NCBI RefSeq assembly: GCF_963082495.1
Contig: NZ_CAUJAN010000003.1
Span: forward strand, 310,001-374,000
Length of the DNA stretch: 64,000 nucleotides
Source of the DNA: Methanobrevibacter sp. V74
GTDB lineage: Archaea > Methanobacteriota > Methanobacteria > Methanobacteriales > Methanobacteriaceae
Direction of reading: 5' to 3'
The position numbers and the translations under genes are program-made. The notes beneath the pieces were generated by a model. It made no database searches, had not been told where the DNA came from, and worked only from the letters and a program-made list of their open reading frames with translations. Position 1 is the first letter of the stretch. Each line of letters opens with the position of its first letter. Shown here one piece after another: positions 3,917-49,662 of this stretch.

Positions 3917-5292
3917 TAGTTACTAACCAAACTTTTATTATAGATGTCGGATAAATTATAAAATATGTCTGGAAAATCTAAAATTAATGTTTTTAACAAA
4001 ATGACAAAAATCGCTTTGGATGAAGAAATCAGCAATTGTGTGGCTTACCATAGGTATTATCAAAGGCTAATTGCAGTCAAAATAGTTAGTGAAGGAAATA
4101 CCATAACTAATGCCGCAAATATATTGGGAAAATCCTATCAAACAGTTCACAGATGGATTAAAACATGTGAATCTGATAGGATTAGAAGGTTTAAAACCAT
4201 CTTTTGGTGGTGGAAGACCATCAAAATTAACTTATGATCAACTAATTGAATTAGATAAACTCATTGAAAAAACACCCAATATGTCAATGAAAGACGTACA
4301 TAAACTTGTTAATGAAAAATTCAATGTAAATTATAGTTTAAAGCAAATAGGAAAAATTATAAAGAAATTAGGATACAATTATAGCAAAGCATATCCTAAA
4401 TTTTCAAAATCCCCAAAAGATGCTGAAGAACAGTTAAAAAAAACTTAGAAGAATATAATGTAACAACAAATGATATTATAATCTTATTTGATGAAGCATC
4501 ATTCCAAAATGAACCCTATACTCAAAAATCACTATATAAACAAGGAACAAAACACACACAAACTGTAAATCCATACAAATTCAAAATCAACGCCACAGGA
4601 TCACTAACAATAAATGGAAATTCAACCATCACAATCACAAATTCATCAACAGCACCAGAAATTGCAATAGCACTTTTAAAATTAAGAGTAGCAAATACTA
4701 ACAATGAAAAATACAGTAAAAATATTAAACAAAATAATATCCGATGTTAATCTAACTGATAAAGACATAAACAAATTATTAATGAAAAATAACAAAAATA
4801 ATGAAATTTTTACAGCAAAAATTTTAAAAACATTAGAAAAAATATAAAGACAATACCACATCCACAATCACTAGAATCATTGGAAAAACACTGCAATAGA
4901 GAATCCCTCAATAATGTGAAAAAAAGAAGAGAAATAAGAAGAAAAATAACATTAAACCTATTACAAAAAGAAGACATAATAACAAAAATGCAAACCGAAC
5001 AAAGAATATGTTTAATTCTAGATAATTACAATGTCCACAAATCCGTATTTATCAAAAAAAATAGCATTATATCTTAATATTGAACTAATATACCTTCCAC
5101 CATACTCTCCTCACCTAAATCCAATCGAACAAATATGGAGACAAATGAAAAAAGAAATAAAACATTATTACCTTAAATCAAAAGAATTTCTACAAGAATT
5201 AACTATAAAAACATATAATGAATCGATTTCTGGAACAAAAGTTCATGACAAATGGCTCGAAACATTTATACCAAAAGTTTAGTAATTAACTA
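3917..5292 (+). mobile_element. IS630-type insertion element (decayed), inserted in sir2
   Basis: The 1,376-bp element is bounded by imperfect inverted repeats. The left end is TAGTTACTAACCAAACTTTT. The right end, read inward, is TAGTTAATTACTAAACTTTT. It is flanked by TA on both sides (3915-3916 and 5293-5294), the target duplication typical of IS630/Tc1-mariner elements. Removing element and one TA restores the sir2 frame exactly. The internal transposase is broken by several frameshifts, so the copy is not autonomous. Confidence 0.93.
3965..5282 (+). pseudogene. IS630-family transposase, frameshifted remnant
   Basis: Pieces in different frames together make an IS630 transposase. 3965 to about 4200 encodes a helix-turn-helix region (AANILGKSYQTVHRWIK). 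About 4180-4440 continues one frame over (GGGRPSKLTYDQL). About 4440-4750 holds the first catalytic Asp (ILFDEASFQ). 4880-5077 holds the second (LILDNYNVHKS). 5031-5282 holds the Glu-containing LPPYSPHLNPIEQIW. One shift lies in an A8 run near 4437. Four or more shifts are needed, so programmed frameshifting is unlikely. Confidence 0.88.
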
Positions 5293-7886: not shown

Positions 7887-9050
7887 TTAATAGTTGATTA
7901 AACCAGTATCTTGATTTATCCCTAGATTTTGTAGGTATGATTTGAAAAGATTGTTTTTTAATTTATATTTGCCTCTTGCTGGTTTGATTATCATGTTTTT
8001 CTTAATTAAATTTTTTAATAATGCTGAGGGTTCTGAGTTTAAATTAGCATTATATTTTATATAAGAATAGGATAAAACTGTTTCATCACTTTCAGCCATC
8101 AAGCATAGTATTTTTCTTTCTTCCATAGTGGATTTGCTAAATAATACTTTAAATTCTCGTTGAGCTAAAATATTTAAGGAATGTATAGATGCCTTTTTAA
8201 ATTCAGCCATTGTTACTTTATTCCCCTCATTGATTTCGTCAAAACAGTTGTAAGCTAAAATTTGCATATAATATGGAATTCCATTAGATAATTCGTATAT
8301 TTCTTTTAAAACATCTTCTTCAAAGCTTACATTTTGTTTTTTAATTGGAATATTGATTGCTTCACATACTTCGTCGTATGATAATGGTCCTATTAGATAA
8401 GGTTCGAATATTCGTACTGCAGAGTCGAGTTTATCTTGTATTCTGTAGAAAATATCCTCTGAACCTGTAGCTACAAACATTATATTTTTTCCTTTTAAAT
8501 TTAATTCTACAAGAGCATTTTGTAAAATGCTTAGTATCTTCATTGTTTCTTCATTGCTCATTATCCTTTGAAGATCATCGAACAATAAGATTAAAACCGG
8601 ATTGTCAGAGTCTAACTCATCATAAATTACATTTAATATTTTTTCAAATGCAATGGCTGGGCTGGTTTTAGGTATTTCACGTGATAGAGATATGCCTCCA
8701 ATCAAGGGTATATTGATACCTAATGAATTTATTTTCTCCCAGAAATGACTGATATTGATATCTAAAGTGTCGGAACATTTTTCTATTATTAATGTATAGA
8801 TATCTTCAAAATTTCCTTCTATTAATGGAATTCTAACTGAGTATACATCATCAAAATTAGTTAATTCTTCTTGAAACTTTAATAATAATGATGTTTTTCC
8901 AATCCCTTTTGAGCCATATAATATTAAATGACCAGGAACCCCCTGTTTGGTTGATTGATATATTTTTTTAAGTTCATTTAGTTCTTCTTCACGACCAGTG
9001 AAATAAGATGGAAGAATTCCTGTTCGTTTTCTAAAAGGATTATGTTTCAT
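7887..9050 (-). CDS. Archaeal AAA-family ATPase with C-terminal winged helix
   Basis: A 387-residue P-loop ATPase. It begins NPFRKRTGILPSYFTGREEEL, typical of the archaeal ATPase (Cdc6/STAND-like) group. Walker A is GSKGIGKTSLL (about 46-56) and Walker B LILLFDDLQ (about 155-163), followed by a sensor-like MFVATGSED. The last 90 residues look like a winged-helix DNA-binding domain (LSYSYIKYNANLNSEPSALLKNLIKKNMI). Translation starts at ATG 9050 behind GAGGTTATAACC. The upstream region holds paired repeats that could be its own operators. The cellular role is unknown. Confidence 0.8.
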   Translation of the reverse strand: MKHNPFRKRTGILPSYFTGREEELNELKKIYQSTKQGVPGHLILYGSKGIGKTSLLLKFQEELTNFDDVYSVRIPLIEGNFEDIYTLIIEKCSDTLDINISHFWEKINSLGINIPLIGGISLSREIPKTSPAIAFEKILNVIYDELDSDNPVLILLFDDLQRIMSNEETMKILSILQNALVELNLKGKNIMFVATGSEDIFYRIQDKLDSAVRIFEPYLIGPLSYDEVCEAINIPIKKQNVSFEEDVLKEIYELSNGIPYYMQILAYNCFDEINEGNKVTMAEFKKASIHSLNILAQREFKVLFSKSTMEERKILCLMAESDETVLSYSYIKYNANLNSEPSALLKNLIKKNMIIKPARGKYKLKNNLFKSYLQNLGINQDTGLINY

Positions 9051-9073
9051 GGTTATAACCTCTATTAATAATT

Positions 9074-9210
9074 TTCATGATAAACATGAAAAAAATTTAT
9101 GATACTTATGTTTCTTATGTTTTTTAGAATATTTAAAAATTTTCATTAGAAAACATGAATTTCATAACTAACATAAAAGAAATTTATGATACTTATGTTT
9201 CTTATGTTTT
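9074..9210. repeat. Paired 31-bp direct repeats plus small palindromes between ATPase and channel genes
   Basis: The 31-bp sequence beginning AAATTTATGATACTTATG occurs at 9093-9123 and again at 9180-9210, exactly 87 bp apart. Before each copy is a palindrome: TTCATG-N5-CATGAA at 9074-9090, and ATGAATTTCAT near 9155-9165. The arrangement suggests operators for a DNA-binding protein, perhaps the adjacent ATPase with its winged helix. Confidence 0.6.
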
Positions 9211-9212
9211 CA

Positions 9213-9235
9213 GACTCTTTCAAAAACTTTGTTGA
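9213..9235 (-). repeat. Solo MITE-end-like sequence
   Basis: This 23-bp stretch (GACTCTTTCAAAAACTTTGT...) matches the terminal repeat of the MITE at 55966-56139 at about 19 of 23 positions. No matching second end is visible nearby, so it is a relic or a chance match. Confidence 0.35.
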
Positions 9236-9323
9236 TTTGAACTATCCATTGCCAAAACACATTATAGTTTAAAATATAGTAGAGTATATAAGTATAATTA
9301 TCTTAAGTTTTAGGAAAAATCAT

Positions 9324-10460
9324 ATGCGAAAAATAACATTTAAAATTTTAACAAAACTTCCAACAAAATACATTAGTAGTGGATTAATAATAATTATGGC
9401 CATTTTTATTTATGGTATCCTAGGTTCTTATTTTATAATGGACTTAAACCTTATTGATTCAATTTATTATGCGACCATTACAATGGCAACTGTTGGATAT
9501 GGGGATTATCTTCCTCAAACAGGAATCGAAAAATTATTTGCAACATCCCTAGCCCTTGCAGGAGTTGCTTTACTTGCATATGTATTTAATATGATGTTAA
9601 CAAATTTCCAGGAAAAAATGACCAAGTATTCAAAGGGAGCGAGAAAATTGAAAGCTATTGAAAATATGGAAGATTATTATATTATTTGTGGTTTAGGAAG
9701 AGTTGGGAAAGTGGTTTTTGATGAGTTAACCGATAGAAATCAGAATGTAATTGTTATTGAAAAAGACAAGGAAAAATGTGAAAACATTGAAGAAAAGAAA
9801 AACATTGTAATCCTAAATGGCGATGCCATAGAAAATGATTTAATTGCAAAGCTGGCAGGAACTAAATGTAGAAGCGTTATAGTCTGTACTGGAGATGATG
9901 TAACTAATTTATTTATAGTATTGACCATTAGAGAAACAAATCCTGATGCATGGATTGTATCAAGAGCCAGTAAACTTGAAAATATTAAAAGACTTAAAAA
10001 AGCTGGAGCAAATAAAATTGTATCCCCTGAAGTGATTGGAGGGGAAGGCCTTTATTATGAATCTGCAAGTCCTCATCTTTTAAGAGTGACTGTAAGACAT
10101 AACTCCGATGAAATTTATGAGGAATTTAAAATAATAACTAAACATGGATGTACATTAGAAAATATTGAGTATCACTTACCGGGAATTGAAACAACACTTA
10201 CCCGCCAAATTAAAACAATGAACATAGCAGATGGTCAGAGATTTGTAAATCGCCTAAGCATTCATGATGATCAAAAACAAGCATTAGATAACCTATACCG
10301 AAGTGCAAATAATATCCACTCCCATTTAATTTCAGGACCTAATAATACTACTTTTGATAAATTGCTTGAAGATTTAAGAAAACAAGAAGAGATTATTGGT
10401 GTTAATTTATCTAATGAAGAGATAGCTAAGCTAACTCAAAAAGAAATACTCAATAAATAA
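9324..10460 (+). CDS. MthK-like potassium channel with RCK/TrkA-N domain
   Basis: A 378-residue two-transmembrane channel subunit. The first helix is at about 18-38, the pore helix and K+ selectivity filter TVGYGD at 56-61, and the second helix at about 70-92. A Rossmann RCK domain begins YYIICGLGRVGK (118-129), and a C-terminal half extends to 378. In MthK the RCK domain binds Ca2+ and gates the pore; the binding residues cannot be assigned here. The gene is divergent from the AAA ATPase and near the TrkH/TrkA uptake genes. Confidence 0.9.
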   Translation: MRKITFKILTKLPTKYISSGLIIIMAIFIYGILGSYFIMDLNLIDSIYYATITMATVGYGDYLPQTGIEKLFATSLALAGVALLAYVFNMMLTNFQEKMTKYSKGARKLKAIENMEDYYIICGLGRVGKVVFDELTDRNQNVIVIEKDKEKCENIEEKKNIVILNGDAIENDLIAKLAGTKCRSVIVCTGDDVTNLFIVLTIRETNPDAWIVSRASKLENIKRLKKAGANKIVSPEVIGGEGLYYESASPHLLRVTVRHNSDEIYEEFKIITKHGCTLENIEYHLPGIETTLTRQIKTMNIADGQRFVNRLSIHDDQKQALDNLYRSANNIHSHLISGPNNTTFDKLLEDLRKQEEIIGVNLSNEEIAKLTQKEILNK

Positions 10461-10487
10461 AAAAAAATGAAGAGAATTAAATTCTCT
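10461..10487 (-). terminator. Terminator of ftr
   Basis: On the minus strand AGAGAAT-TTA-ATTCTCT is followed by TCATTTTTTTTATTT, a short stem with a T tract, just after the ftr stop codon. Confidence 0.6.
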
Positions 10488-11376
10488 AGAACAATTCGTG
10501 TAAATGCATAATAGCAGAACCTAATTTACCATCGAAGTTACCTGCTGAAATTTCAAGTACACCTTCAACAGCACAAGCAGCTTCAATTCCTGCTTTCATA
10601 GCTGCTTTTACAGATTCCTCATCAACACCATCGATAACTATTTCAAATACTCCGTTAGCATCTTCTCTAATGTCTGAATCAACTTTGTCTTTTAAAGTTA
10701 CACACATTTTTTCGTTAGTGGATGCATTTAAGAATTTTGAGTATTTGTTGGATCCTACTTTAGAACCAGAAGCGACCATACCTCCAGGAAATGGAGTAAT
10801 TACGCCTTCAACTTTAGAAATAGCTTCAACTGCTGCTTGAGCTGCGGCTACACCAATCATTTGTTCGGTCGCTAAGATAAAGAAGTTTCCTCCAGCCACA
10901 CCATTTTTGTATCCGAAGTCAGATTCTACTAAGAAGTCGCCGGACATGATTGGAATGGAGAACACTTTTCTTCCATCAATTTCTAATTCTTCTTCAAAAC
11001 CGTCCCCGAAGAATTTTAATTTTGCACCGGTGTTTAAAGTATCTCCAGATTCTAAACAGTTGAATGCTGCTGCGGTTGGAGCGGTTAAAATACACATTCC
11101 TATTCTTTCCATTAATTCATGATCTAGTGCTTTTTTACCACCTTGACAAATCATTATAACATAACCAGGTCTTCCATCGGGAGTGTTTTCTGCCGGTACA
11201 AAGCAGTCAATACCTGCTTCAGCAGGACATCCAATAACAGAAGTTCCGTAACCGGTAGCTTCAGTTGCTGCAATTTTTGCTAATTCTTCAGTTTCTGCAG
11301 TAACTAAAATTCTAGTTACTTTGATTCCAAAACCTTCTGCATAAGTATCTTTAATTTCTACGCCATTTATTTCCAT
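10486..11376 (-). CDS. ftr: Formylmethanofuran:tetrahydromethanopterin formyltransferase
   Basis: A 296-residue enzyme that moves the formyl group from formylmethanofuran to tetrahydromethanopterin, the second step of CO2 reduction to methane. The sequence is highly characteristic: [18 protein letters not shown] at the N-terminus, [27 protein letters not shown], and a conserved C-terminal half with [17 protein letters not shown]. It starts behind GGTGAAAAT-ATG. It is monocistronic, with its own terminator. Confidence 0.97.
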
Positions 11377-46246: not shown

Positions 46247-47080
46247 ATGCGCAAAATAATGATTTTACTAGCTATAATCATTGTTGGAATGCTCATTCCA
46301 GCAGGATTTTCAACAAGCGATACGCAAGCAGTAATAACCTATGGGGAAACAACCCACCACAATGCCGGCTATAAAAATATTGTTGATACTTTCTTTGTAA
46401 AACAGTCCGGTGTGGATTTACACGGTGTTGATTCCAAAATAATCACTGCAAATAATGTAAATAAGATTTCACGTGACATTACAGGTAAAACTTATTCATC
46501 TAACCAAATATATTCTTCAGCACTGGTGGATTTAAACGAAAATGATGATTTAGAAGTTAGTGTAGACAAATCAAAAATTACTACAATAACAGGCAATATG
46601 TATCTTTCTGCACTTAAATCAGCAGGAATTAGAGCAGGACACGTATATGTAACCAGTCCAGTAACTGCAACTGGAGAATCTGCTCTTGCAGGAATTATGA
46701 ATTCCTATGAAGCGGCAACTGATACTAAAATTCCTGACAATATAAAAGAAGCAGCCAATAATGAGATTTATACCCAGGCAGAAATCGTTGAAAACTCGGA
46801 TGTTAATGCTGATGAGTTATCCAAATTGGTTGATGATGTAAAAGAAGAAGTGGTGGAAAACAATATTACCGACCACCAAACTATTGTAAACATTATCAAT
46901 AATTACACTGTTATAAACAACATCAACATTACAAACAGTGATATTGAAAACCTTGCAGAAAGTATTGAACAAATACAAAACGTTCAAGGGGATGTAAACA
47001 CCTATCAAACTGAAGTATCAAATGTCTTAAACAACACTACTGATAGTACAGCAGGCGGATTATTTGGATTATTCAATTAA
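46247..47080 (+). CDS. DUF1002 family secreted protein
   Basis: A 277-residue protein with a signal peptide (MRKIMILLAIIIVGMLIPAGFS) and the DUF1002 (YpuA-like) pattern VITYGETT...NAGYKNIVDTFF, SSALVDL and GIRAGHVYVTSPVTATGESALAGIM. The C-terminal part is Asn-rich and probably helical. Function unknown. Start ATG 46247 follows GAGGTGAC (46235-46242). It is divergent from the CobN-like gene. Confidence 0.82.
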   Translation: MRKIMILLAIIIVGMLIPAGFSTSDTQAVITYGETTHHNAGYKNIVDTFFVKQSGVDLHGVDSKIITANNVNKISRDITGKTYSSNQIYSSALVDLNENDDLEVSVDKSKITTITGNMYLSALKSAGIRAGHVYVTSPVTATGESALAGIMNSYEAATDTKIPDNIKEAANNEIYTQAEIVENSDVNADELSKLVDDVKEEVVENNITDHQTIVNIINNYTVINNINITNSDIENLAESIEQIQNVQGDVNTYQTEVSNVLNNTTDSTAGGLFGLFN

Positions 47081-47415
47081 TCCGAATCTCTTTTTAATTT
47101 TTCTATTTCTCCAAGATTCAAGATAATGAAATTTTTATATTTTGGATTGGCCAATATCTTATATTGCTTTTTCCCAGATTTAGCATATGCTTCATTCATT
47201 AAATCTTGTAGGACATCAACATCAGAAGTTAATATAAGATCTAATTTTATCATTTCTTCATCACTTAATGACTCTAAAAATGATCGGATAGTTGATTTAA
47301 ATTTTAATACAATGTTTGAATTTTTACGTGCCATCATTTCCAATACAAATGAAGGTGCAATTGTGAATAAATGTCCGTATTCTTTTATATCTTCATATGA
47401 AAGTTCCTCAGCCAT
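47077..47415 (-). CDS. Conserved hypothetical protein, 112 residues
   Basis: A soluble, mostly helical protein (MAEELSYEDIKEYGHLF..., SFLESLSDEEMIKLDLIL..., YKILANPKYKNFIILNL). No catalytic motif recognised. A GGCGATATT-ATG start is reasonable. It overlaps the DUF1002 gene end by 4 bp, convergently. It forms the left edge of the rnpB-associated island. Confidence 0.6.
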   Translation of the reverse strand: MAEELSYEDIKEYGHLFTIAPSFVLEMMARKNSNIVLKFKSTIRSFLESLSDEEMIKLDLILTSDVDVLQDLMNEAYAKSGKKQYKILANPKYKNFIILNLGEIEKLKRDSD

Positions 47416-47499: not shown

Positions 47500-47771
47500 T
47501 TTTAAAGTTGAAATTACATTTCAGTGAAAATTCATTTAATTTAAAAAATATTGGTTTAAATAGTAAATTACTTAAACACGCCAGATTATTTATCAATATA
47601 AGGATGCTGCTTTCTTTTAGCAATACAAACAACATCTATCGAAGCAATATCTCATATTCACATATTTCTAAAACCGAGTATAATTTTTTATAGCATTTGA
47701 AGATAAACCTCTTAGTTTAACTAACTTTCTTAACCGAACATCATCTTTTGAAAATTTGGTTTTAGTCGTCA
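47500..47771 (-). pseudogene. Tyrosine-integrase N-terminal remnant (copy 2)
   Basis: From ATG 47771 the frame reads MTTKTKFSKDDVRLRKLVK then LRGLSSNAIKNY, closely matching the start of the integrase remnant at 49227. After TAG the homology continues in another frame (YSVLEICEY) and another (SIDVVCIAKRKQHPYIDK), paralleling SDIVRIGKREQKPFLVRK in copy 1. The left limit is approximate. At least two frameshifts or stops are present. Confidence 0.75.
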
Positions 47772-47798
47772 TGATTAATAATATGCAAATTACCACCA

Positions 47799-47831
47799 TT
47801 TGGTAACCCACATAATTACATGGCATGTTAA
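47799..47831. repeat. 33-bp att-like direct repeat, copy 2
   Basis: Identical to 49258-49290 over 33 bp, starting TTTGGTAACCCACATAATTA and ending GGCATGTTAA. The last ten bases equal the 3' strand of RNase P RNA helix P1. It lies 27 bp upstream of the integrase remnant start, as does copy 1 (30 bp). Confidence 0.85.
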
Positions 47832-47861
47832 GAATAAGCTACATAAAATTATGTGGGTTAC
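47803..47861. repeat. Perfect 15-bp inverted repeat at the att copy
   Basis: GTAACCCACATAATT at 47803-47817 is exactly reverse-complementary to 47847-47861, 29 bp apart. The same core GTAACCCACAT also occurs at 49262 and in rnpB at 49293. The pattern is that of paired recombinase-binding arms. Confidence 0.7.
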
Positions 47862-47909
47862 TAACTAAAAATAGAGCAAAACTACAACGAATTTCAACAA
47901 AAAACATAC

Positions 47910-48284
47910 TCATATAAATCTATTTGTTTCTTTTAAAAATTCTTCAGCTTCAACTATTCTTTTTTTAGCTAACTTTTGACCAATATCATCAATAGCATCA
48001 TAATCAGCATTTTCCCTATCTGATTGGGCATTAGCCAGATATTTGTAAACATTATACTTAAAATCATCTTCTTTAACATATTTTAAACTAAATAATTGAA
48101 TTAAACCCTGATGAGATTTTGGAATTTTACAATTCTTTTTAAGTAACAATGCCTTAGCACATAAAAACATACAGTAATAAGATAATGAAACAGAATCAGC
48201 ATAACCTTCAATTTCAAATAAAGCTTTGCTATGTTTTAATTTAGTTTCAGCTTTAGTAATAAACGCAATAATTTCTTCATCCAA
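47910..48284 (-). CDS. HEPN-domain protein (toxin-like partner of MNT)
   Basis: A 124-residue helical HEPN protein (KAETKLKHSKALFEIEGYADSVSLSYYCMFLCAKALLL...). The conserved C-terminal motif here reads SDRENADYDA; I see no histidine after the Arg, so the classical RX4-6H ribonuclease motif is absent or altered. It starts at TTG 48284, six bases after GGTG, and overlaps the nucleotidyltransferase gene by 8 bp. Such pairs act as toxin-antitoxin modules in which the MNT partner modifies the HEPN protein. Confidence 0.85.
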   Translation of the reverse strand: MDEEIIAFITKAETKLKHSKALFEIEGYADSVSLSYYCMFLCAKALLLKKNCKIPKSHQGLIQLFSLKYVKEDDFKYNVYKYLANAQSDRENADYDAIDDIGQKLAKKRIVEAEEFLKETNRFI

Positions 48285-48582
48285 TTACAACACCTTCTCT
48301 TAAAACATTAGTTAAAAATGAATAAGATTTAGTTTTATTAAAGTGTTCTTCGCTCATTACATGAGCTGAAATAAGTTCTCCTTTATCATACATAATCCAT
48401 GCAACAGCATCTGCTATTTTATCATCAATCTCCATATGATGATTGGATATGATTAAAATATCTATATCTGACTCCTCAGTATCATCACCACGAGCAACAG
48501 AACCAAACAACATAATTGATTTAACATAATCTGATTTGATAGTATTTGCAAATTCTTTAGCTATTTCAATTCTATCATTCAT
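48277..48582 (-). CDS. MNT-type nucleotidyltransferase (antitoxin-like)
   Basis: A 101-residue minimal nucleotidyltransferase with the GSVARGDDTEESDIDILII motif (GS...DxD), complete for AMP transfer. Start ATG 48582 follows AGGTGATT. It is translationally coupled to the HEPN gene. The pair lies between two att-like repeats and is probably cargo of an integrated element. Confidence 0.88.
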   Translation of the reverse strand: MNDRIEIAKEFANTIKSDYVKSIMLFGSVARGDDTEESDIDILIISNHHMEIDDKIADAVAWIMYDKGELISAHVMSEEHFNKTKSYSFLTNVLREGVVIG

Positions 48583-48714
48583 AATAATCACCTAAGATAA
48601 GTAATATAATATTTAATATCAAACTTCCCCATAATAAATATTTGCAAAATAATGATATTATCTACAATTATTACAACTACCACAAGATAATTAATACAAA
48701 CATGAATAATTTTA

Positions 48715-49227
48715 TCAATACTCATCACTACTTCTTAAACCAGTTGTCACGAAAAAGGAAATGATATCTTTATCCCTAATACTTTTACAAAATGACATTG
48801 CCATCTACTTCTCTCTATGAAATTATATATTCATCACGAATTCTATCTCTTTGAATAACAATATCAATAGGTTTTGGTTTTTCTATATCATACTCTCCCA
48901 ATAAAGCTCTAAAAGTATCCAATTTAAGTTTTAATGTAGTGTTGGATAAATTTTTACTTTCTAAATAATCATGGTATTTGAATTGATATTCAGTAACAGA
49001 CCTATCTTCTAGCTCCAATATTTTATATTACCCAGTTTCCTTACTAAAAATGGTTTCTGTTCCCTTTTACCAATACGAACAATATCAGATGGATTTACTT
49101 CAAATAAATTAAATATTTCATTAAAAACAGTGTCATAATTCTTTATAGCATTTTTAGTTAAACCTCTTCGTTTAACCATCCTATTTAATCTAATATCTTC
49201 TTCAGAAAATTTGGTTTTGGTTGTCAT
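48715..49227 (-). pseudogene. Tyrosine-integrase remnant (copy 1), frameshifted
   Basis: Three pieces in order. 49227-49009 gives MTTKTKFSEEDIRLNRMVK...GKREQKPFLVRKLGN. 49018-48815 gives a core-binding domain (YQFKYHDYLESKNLSNTTLKLKLDTFRALL). 48798-48715 gives FFVTTGLRSSDEY, which matches the first catalytic-Arg box (GLRxxE/D) of tyrosine recombinases. The shifts are near 49015 and near 48800, and the rest of the catalytic domain is missing. It begins 30 bp from the att repeat next to rnpB. Confidence 0.82.
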
Positions 49228-49257
49228 TTAATAATATGCAGATTACCATCATAAATG

Positions 49258-49290
49258 TTTGGTAACCCACATAATTACATGGCATGTTAA
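49258..49290. repeat. 33-bp att-like direct repeat, copy 1, overlapping the rnpB 3' end
   Basis: Identical to 47799-47831. Its last ten bases (49281-49290) are the 3' strand of RNase P RNA helix P1, so integration here would preserve the RNA gene. Confidence 0.85.
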
Positions 49291-49565
49291 TAGTAACCCA
49301 CATTCTGTTTTTACAGCATTCATCTTAGCGAACTACCTTGCCTACACAAACGATTATCGGCAACTTTGTTCTTGCATCCTATGGAATGGCCGTTTCACCG
49401 CTTCTTTTAATGTCCTCAAGCAATATCATAGTCAACCATTAAAAGTCGTGTCGTTTCTGCTCCAGAGTCATACTTCTCAGTATACGTTTTTCAACGCCAT
49501 AGATTTTGTTTGATGTGCGGAGTTTCCTTAGTTTACGAAAAACCAGTAGCTGTCTTTAACTTGCC
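49281..49565 (-). ncRNA. rnpB: RNase P RNA
   Basis: A 285-nt RNA that processes tRNA 5' ends. In RNA sense, GGCAAGTTAA (from 49565) pairs with terminal TTAACATGCC (to 49281) as helix P1. The conserved GGAAACTCCGC (49527-49517) is near the 5' end. ACAGAATGTGGGTTAC (49308-49293) is the conserved region near the 3' end. GAAACGGCC-type and AGTTCGCTAAGATGAATG segments also fit archaeal type A RNase P RNA. The region is visibly richer in G+C than its surroundings. Ends are inferred from P1. Confidence 0.9.
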
Positions 49566-49587
49566 AGAAAAAATTTTGATTAAAAAG

Positions 49588-49662
49588 TAGCAGGGCCTAG
49601 ATTTGAACTAGGGATCTCGGGGTTATGAGCCCCGCGGGTTCACCAGACTACCCCACCCTGCT
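49588..49662 (-). tRNA. Initiator tRNA-Met (CAT)
   Basis: AGCAGGG (from 49662) pairs with CCCTGCT. The anticodon arm CGGGGCTCATAACCCCG has the run of G-C pairs typical of initiator tRNA, and the 5' A1-U72 pair is archaeal initiator-like. A73 is at 49588. It is 22 bp upstream of rnpB on the same strand and may be cotranscribed with it. Confidence 0.95.

Follow-up and report, generated by a model that had tools for sequence, protein, structure and literature searches.

Archaeal integrative elements of the pNOB8 type keep their integrase gene whole and target the 3' end of a tRNA gene. The composite islands of the staphylococcal cassette chromosome (SCC) depend on serine recombinases (ccr), and their target is rlmH. 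Cassettes inserted serially at one specific site are already known from integrons and SCC. Integrons have been reported in Archaea, according to the accessible portion of PMC9668308. In this study, we analysed a locus in Methanobrevibacter at which the anchor, the integrase and the site all differ from these systems. No report of rnpB, the RNase P RNA gene, as an integration site was found in the open full text of PMC; most subscription papers lie outside that collection, and a prior report is possible. The terms 'rnpB' and 'RNase P' were absent in a term search of the available text of an archaeal tyrosine recombinase review (PMC8371274). Integration at rnpB was likewise not found in the accessible portions of PMC12134362, PMC11705971, PMC8371274, PMC2705793, PMC9668308, PMC2516327, PMC3053259 and PMC10763512. 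From sequence comparison, we put at roughly 0.8 the probability that in this Methanobrevibacter genus the rnpB 3' end serves as the attachment site of tyrosine-integrase elements and of small cassettes that share their right-end site. The rnpB end in these gut methanogens looks like a docking site, at which an element and cassettes would insert one behind another.

The window, that is, the whole stretch of 64,000 nucleotides that was analysed, carries rnpB at 49282..49564 on the minus strand (RF00373, 197.5 bits, model positions 1-288, the whole model), and all other window features described below lie on the same strand. A tRNA-Met gene at 49587-49662, 22 bp upstream of rnpB, is possibly co-transcribed with it. 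The original prediction had reported two identical 33-bp repeats, and these are exact at 49258..49290 and 47799..47831. The copy beside rnpB, the putative attL, consists of the last 9-10 nt of rnpB (the 3' strand of helix P1) and the element left arm GTGGGTTACC. As had been proposed, it contains the final P1 strand, TTAACATGCC (49290-49281), which opens the repeat on the minus strand and pairs with the 5' strand GGCAAGTTAA at 9 of 10 positions. Across 50 rnpB loci with both strands readable, 8 or 9 of the 10 P1 base pairs are conserved. With up to 3 mismatches allowed, a search of the 2.3-Mb genome for 30 bases of the repeat found two occurrences and no others, and the reversed control gave 0. 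When the 14-nt rnpB-end core of each of 54 loci was sought within 3 kb downstream (at most 1 mismatch), 9 matches were found, against 0.0 expected from shuffled cores. These results indicate that the repeats are beyond chance.

Each repeat is followed by a decayed integrase start. Integrase relic 1 (48724..49227) covers Int residues 10-178 with several stops and is 48% identical to the 599-aa Int of the relative G050. Relic 2 (47580..47799) is broken by a frameshift and stops into two pieces in two frames, 47799-47656 (residues 1-48) and 47651-47580 (residues 52-75), which match the 599-aa Int of relatives at 50-56% identity. The MTTK start codon lies 30 bp from the repeat in relic 1 and 26 bp in relic 2, in agreement with the predicted spacing of about 30 bp. 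Pfam identified 0 families in one relic, and in the other only a sub-threshold Phage_int_SAM_5 match (E 0.025). The relics are known as tyrosine integrases because the Int of relatives, unlike Pfam alone, matches both; their supposed kinship to each other and to tyrosine recombinases is thereby upheld. A further C-terminal relic of the Int family was observed in the same genome at C3:284538-284976. It lies roughly 73 kb from rnpB, contains stops and is not accompanied by a site.

The toxin-antitoxin-like pair expected between the repeats is present, with both genes open and over Pfam cut-offs, and the predicted order rnpB-att-int-MNT/HEPN-att-int is correct. The MNT nucleotidyltransferase (48277..48591, 104 aa, antitoxin-like) matches PF01909/PF18765 (NTP_transf_2/Polbeta). 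Its gene overlaps by 8 bp that of the HEPN protein (47910..48284, 124 aa, toxin-like; PF05168, E 6e-17). MNT is 67% identical to its homologues in G004, G015 and G050 and 70% to that in G054; for HEPN the values are 40% to the element copies and 52% to the cassette copy in G054. MNT reached the cut-offs of the general nucleotidyltransferase families and scored 34.7 bits with the curated MntA model, whose cut-off is 60. The RX4-6H motif was sought in the window HEPN and is absent. The two proteins may act as a toxin-antitoxin pair.

The relatives compared were 67 genomes of the genus, 57 of them with an rnpB match and most of them draft or metagenome assemblies. Int was found beside rnpB in 6 of the 67 and is intact in 3: G015, G045 and G050 each carry a 599-aa Int, 96-100% identical to the query, directly behind rnpB. 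Intact elements with int next to the rnpB-side att site, which the original prediction had named as a check along with empty sites, thus exist. The relatives thus possess the intact tyrosine recombinase expected of a site-specific integrative element; both copies in the window are broken. The three intact proteins match PF00589 at 37.7 bits (cut-off 27.1), and candidate catalytic residues R175, H311, R314, H347 and Y358 were assigned by eye. Both element ends were found in G015 (14.4 kb) and G050 (15.6 kb), where the element lies between attL and attR. An attL-type left end after rnpB is common to G004, G015, G045, G050 and G036, and in G015, G050, G036, G004 and the window the elements are flanked by direct repeats, one of which overlaps the rnpB end. 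From rnpB, the gene order is int, small membrane and zinc-ribbon proteins, a primase-helicase (1051-1052 aa, on the opposite strand in G015 and G050), restriction-modification genes (an Eco57I-type methylase in G015 and a specificity subunit in G050), MNT and HEPN. The last two genes are open in the G015 and G050 elements and stand about 80 bp before the right end; the MNT/HEPN pair is the right-end module of the integrase element. The left parts of these two elements are 96.5% identical over 3.76 kb, versus 82% for the 1 kb upstream of rnpB. No right end appears on the G045 contig, whose genes farther on look bacterial; the contig may therefore be chimeric. Decayed elements lie behind rnpB in G004 and G036, that of G004 retaining part of the primase and MNT/HEPN.

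Close relatives of Int also occur away from rnpB, as fragments in G001 and G054. The G001 fragment (G001:C3:325000-342000, 8424-11160) holds Int residues 405-599 at 98% identity with the genes that follow, and it adjoins genes resembling cas1 and cas2. A solved-structure search with Int returned chance-level matches only. Among the element proteins scanned, PHROGs matches were limited to integrase, primase and unknown families. A viral origin was considered and rejected, as viral contigs held no Int relative and no exact site pattern.

The right-end site spans about 95 bp and was found in 24 copies in 19 of the 67 genomes, each oriented like the rnpB end next to it. On 22 occasions the site shares a contig with rnpB sequence and lies 0.4 to 15.6 kb downstream of it. 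The other two (G054:C66 and G059:C45) stand on contigs starting at the core and are linked to rnpB through contig ends only. The 24 sites were aligned (A1) and modelled (R1), and all genomes of the genus were searched with this profile. They scored 50.8 to 90.7 bits and no further full copy appeared, a search that tests the location of the site and not its existence because these 24 sites were themselves the input to R1. The next-lower matches were the rnpB ends themselves, at 41 bits or less. A full site is present in 15 of the 48 rnpB loci having at least 1 kb of downstream sequence. With reversed sequence, R1 gave no match at E <= 10 in 773,126 bases. Matches on the opposite strand were weak (16.6 bits or less), the strongest being the element's inverted left arm at rnpB. 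A scan with an 18-base score gave 25 extra forward matches versus 5 on the opposite strand, at a low threshold and with some loci double-counted; because of these opposite-strand matches and the double counting, it was dropped for the whole-site profile. In 138 genomes of the family, R1 detected no full site outside the genus and gave three weak partial matches of 20-21 bits. In another genus, where rnpB was matched in 3 of 4 genomes, the P1 end is a different one, TTAGCAGGC, and the flank is rich in T. A divergent partial site was observed in G021:C18 (about 4091-4139), with arms GTAACAT/ATGTTAC instead of GTAACCC/GGGTTAC; the palindrome is kept, and the assembly gives it no link to rnpB.

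In the window, a right-end (attR-type) site assigned to the first element occupies 47809..47895 (R1 positions 2-88, 63.8 bits genome-wide, alignment A1). It overlaps an attP-like junction at 47800..47864, in which inverted arms GTAACCCACAT...ATGTGGGTTAC flank the core TTAACATGCCATG (inverted repeat I4, 87% complementary). The element right end (GTAACCCACAT...) precedes the distal repeat, and the left end (...ATGTGGGTTACC) and the int start follow it. What follows the right end in G015 and G050 is the chromosomal or cassette flank ATGAATATTAATTATT, not an element left end. Because a right end precedes it and a left end with int follows, we read the distal repeat at 47799..47831 as the joint of two tandem elements, the right end of element 1 joined to the left end of element 2. 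The Int-type repeat (the core followed by the GTGGGTTACC arm) occurs at 5 of 54 oriented rnpB loci (the window, G004, G015, G045 and G050) and, on a split contig, in G036. Every carrier has an intact or broken int, and the window alone has two copies. Of the outer element, the remainder and its own right end are gone, and the window holds no second full site. These results suggest that two integrase elements probably inserted in succession, in line with the at least two successive integrations of related elements into rnpB first proposed. The integrases of both are now broken and most of the two elements has been lost, the MNT/HEPN pair of the inner one staying open.

Beyond the outer remnant, at 47415, the window continues with a chromosomal neighbour gene (47077..47415). 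In four relatives, G001, G026, G032 and G049, the family of this neighbour starts 72-112 bp after rnpB and no full right-end site is present. These are the empty sites that had been sought among relatives. The distance from a downstream marker, DUF1002, to rnpB had a median of 10.1 kb at 6 loci with a full site, compared to 2.1 kb at 19 loci without one (Mann-Whitney one-sided p 0.0013).

Copies of the site also stand serially and bound cassettes of 0.4-2 kb, with three sites in series in G061 and likewise in G015. The cassette segments hold one or two genes. These encode a Cys-rich 86-aa protein (K), DUF2115, radical SAM, TfoX_N, LtrA, a 2TM protein, DUF2085 with a second protein, and MNT with HepT. 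Several are MNT/HEPN-type pairs, some HepT-like with RX4HXY, and a HepT-like protein of G065 has RX4-6H. Some small cassettes hold a second core copy without any int. In 6 of 16 multi-member flank groups, a shared downstream sequence follows rnpB in one genome and a site in another. K stands behind rnpB in G035 and G043; the loci at which it follows a site are G015, G014 and, at the contig start, G059:C45. DUF2115 follows rnpB in G029 and a site in G022, G015 and G023; radical SAM, rnpB in G061 and a site in G015; LtrA, rnpB in G028 and a site in G061; and sequence X, rnpB in G013 and a site in G038 and G061. The Int left end is found behind rnpB in six genomes and behind a site in the window. 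Since a given cassette stands behind rnpB in one species but behind a different cassette or an element in another, insertion appears to be both precise and serial. All 5 copies of K at 90% identity or more are in rnpB arrays, and the next best match, at 70%, is elsewhere. The DUF2115 cassette type at 91% or more is found in 4 of 4 cases in rnpB arrays; the next best match is 63%, and less similar paralogues occur elsewhere. Between G035 and G043, K is 100% identical over 426 bp and the sequence beyond it differs.

Short cassettes could instead be what deletions left of large integrase elements, these alone being mobile and the order differing through different right-end genes. The elements of the window, G004 and G036 have clearly decayed in the stretch from int to the right end, and the MNT/HEPN pair of full elements recurs in G054 in a short cassette without integrase, as such a history would leave it. 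However, the cassettes start after rnpB with the flank ATGAATATTAATTATT and not with the element left end, and a T-run of at least 5 is found in 37 of 47 non-Int rnpB flanks compared to 0 of 6 Int-first flanks. Depending on the species, the same cassette is first behind rnpB or behind other cassettes, with the boundary at the site. On this evidence we regard deletion as an unlikely source of the cassettes and favour their own insertion at rnpB.

Ordinary homologous recombination through the shared core of about 38 bp might also swap or stack rnpB-linked segments between strains with no dedicated recombinase. Exact repeats of 20 to 48 bases join the rnpB and distal copies in several genomes, and most cassette arrays are now without Int of this family, since only 6 of the 67 genomes have it beside rnpB; arrays such as those of G035, G061 and G028 have no close Int copy. 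A conserved 95-bp site with inverted arms, however, exceeds what homology needs, and it forms the right end of elements whose tyrosine integrase adjoins across the junction. We judge this explanation quite improbable next to site-specific insertion.

In G014, positions +1 to +2003 after rnpB form an ABC transporter segment that ends in a copy of the last 34 nt of rnpB. Because it ends in this copy and not in a full site, the segment may be another kind of element with the same target. Such a stretch of true rnpB sequence would also fit immobile repeats that arose by duplication of the rnpB end, an account to which we give next to no credence, contradicted as it is by the intact integrase elements, the empty sites and the changed cassette order. 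A second, shorter rnpB-like gene was observed at G049:C50:3031-3210 and G034:C74:9838-10064 (75.7 and 115 bits), with flanks 87% alike; it may be a mobile copy, a contaminant or a real second gene. G015:C133 gave a 67-bit archaeal RNase P match, below the cut-off, and is probably a bacterial contig in that assembly.

The inverted repeat of the site is real, with 73.8% of cells paired compared to 28-38% in slid controls. Two-sided changes amounted to 3 pairs, compared to 3.2 in shuffles. Because it is well kept without an excess of two-sided changes, the repeat fits protein-binding arms on double-stranded DNA and lends no support to recombination through a single-stranded hairpin. The same covariation bears on a true integron with an IntI integrase, an attI and cassettes whose attC sites fold as single strands. 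The locus does resemble one: cassettes of one or two genes stand in series, each closed by one of a set of related recombination sites that contain inverted repeats, and integrons in Archaea are on record in the accessible text of PMC9668308. However, the integrase here lies inside a mobile element and is not fixed by the anchor beside an attI. In NCBIfam, Int matched XerA_Arch best (39.4 bits, cut-off 220), then XerC and PRK00283, all below cut-off. No other family, and no integron-integrase model, matched at E <= 0.01; the presence of an IntI model in that library is assumed from its description. A true integron was therefore rejected as highly improbable.

We favour a mechanism in which a circular element or cassette enters through Int-mediated recombination between its own site and the rnpB 3' end, whose make-up is a conserved GTGGGTTAC, the P1 3' strand TTAACAKGCC and then ATGAATATTAATTATT. 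Int would bind the GTGGGTTAC arms, one of them being the conserved sequence of rnpB itself, and strand exchange would occur in the core between TTAACAKGCC and ATGAATATT. Any circle that enters at rnpB would bring along the 3' flank, so each insertion would land directly behind the gene and restore a working P1 strand to it. Newer insertions would push older ones away, and the array would grow. We infer excision, catalysis by Int, circular intermediates, insertion next to rnpB and not at other points of the array, and mobilisation of cassettes in trans from the sequences; Int is the putative recombinase of the cassettes because element and cassette sites are the same. Cassettes would also bring a T-rich, terminator-like flank like that of the empty site, which Int elements would not. 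Because this flank is missing, rnpB transcription may run into int when an element is first in line, and int may possess its own promoter. Each capture would swap the last strand of an essential ribozyme; it is a tentative idea, rated just under an even chance, that selection for RNase P function thus enforces exact recombination and preserves the anchor.

If this reading is correct, an essential and near-universal ribozyme gene anchors a platform for gene capture in gut methanogens. It would account for the transfer of small genes, toxin-antitoxin-like pairs and restriction genes from species to species at a single locus, and the order of cassettes would be a record of insertion order in a lineage. 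It would also be an integron-like system with another integrase and another site, testable in cultured relatives.

The adjacent nucleotidyltransferase and HEPN genes are like those of MntA-HepT, whereas the window MNT falls under the MntA cut-off and its HEPN is without RX4-6H, unlike MntA-HepT type VII. As in SCC at rlmH, insertion is serial, the 3' end of an essential gene is restored each time, and members occur with and without a recombinase. In SCC the recombinases are serine enzymes and the target is a protein gene, whereas here a tyrosine integrase matching PF00589 acts, by our reading, on an RNA gene, rnpB, and neither ccr nor rlmH is involved. With integrons the locus shares an anchor followed by an array of small cassettes, related inverted-repeat sites and an order that varies with the host; it differs in that Int has no IntI match and sits on the largest mobile member, and in that the anchor is a ribozyme gene. 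Like pNOB8-type archaeal elements, the integrase elements have a tyrosine integrase, an att site over the 3' end of a structural RNA gene, restoration of that gene end and int beside one att. They differ in their target, rnpB, and in sharing their site with a series of small cassettes that lack an integrase.
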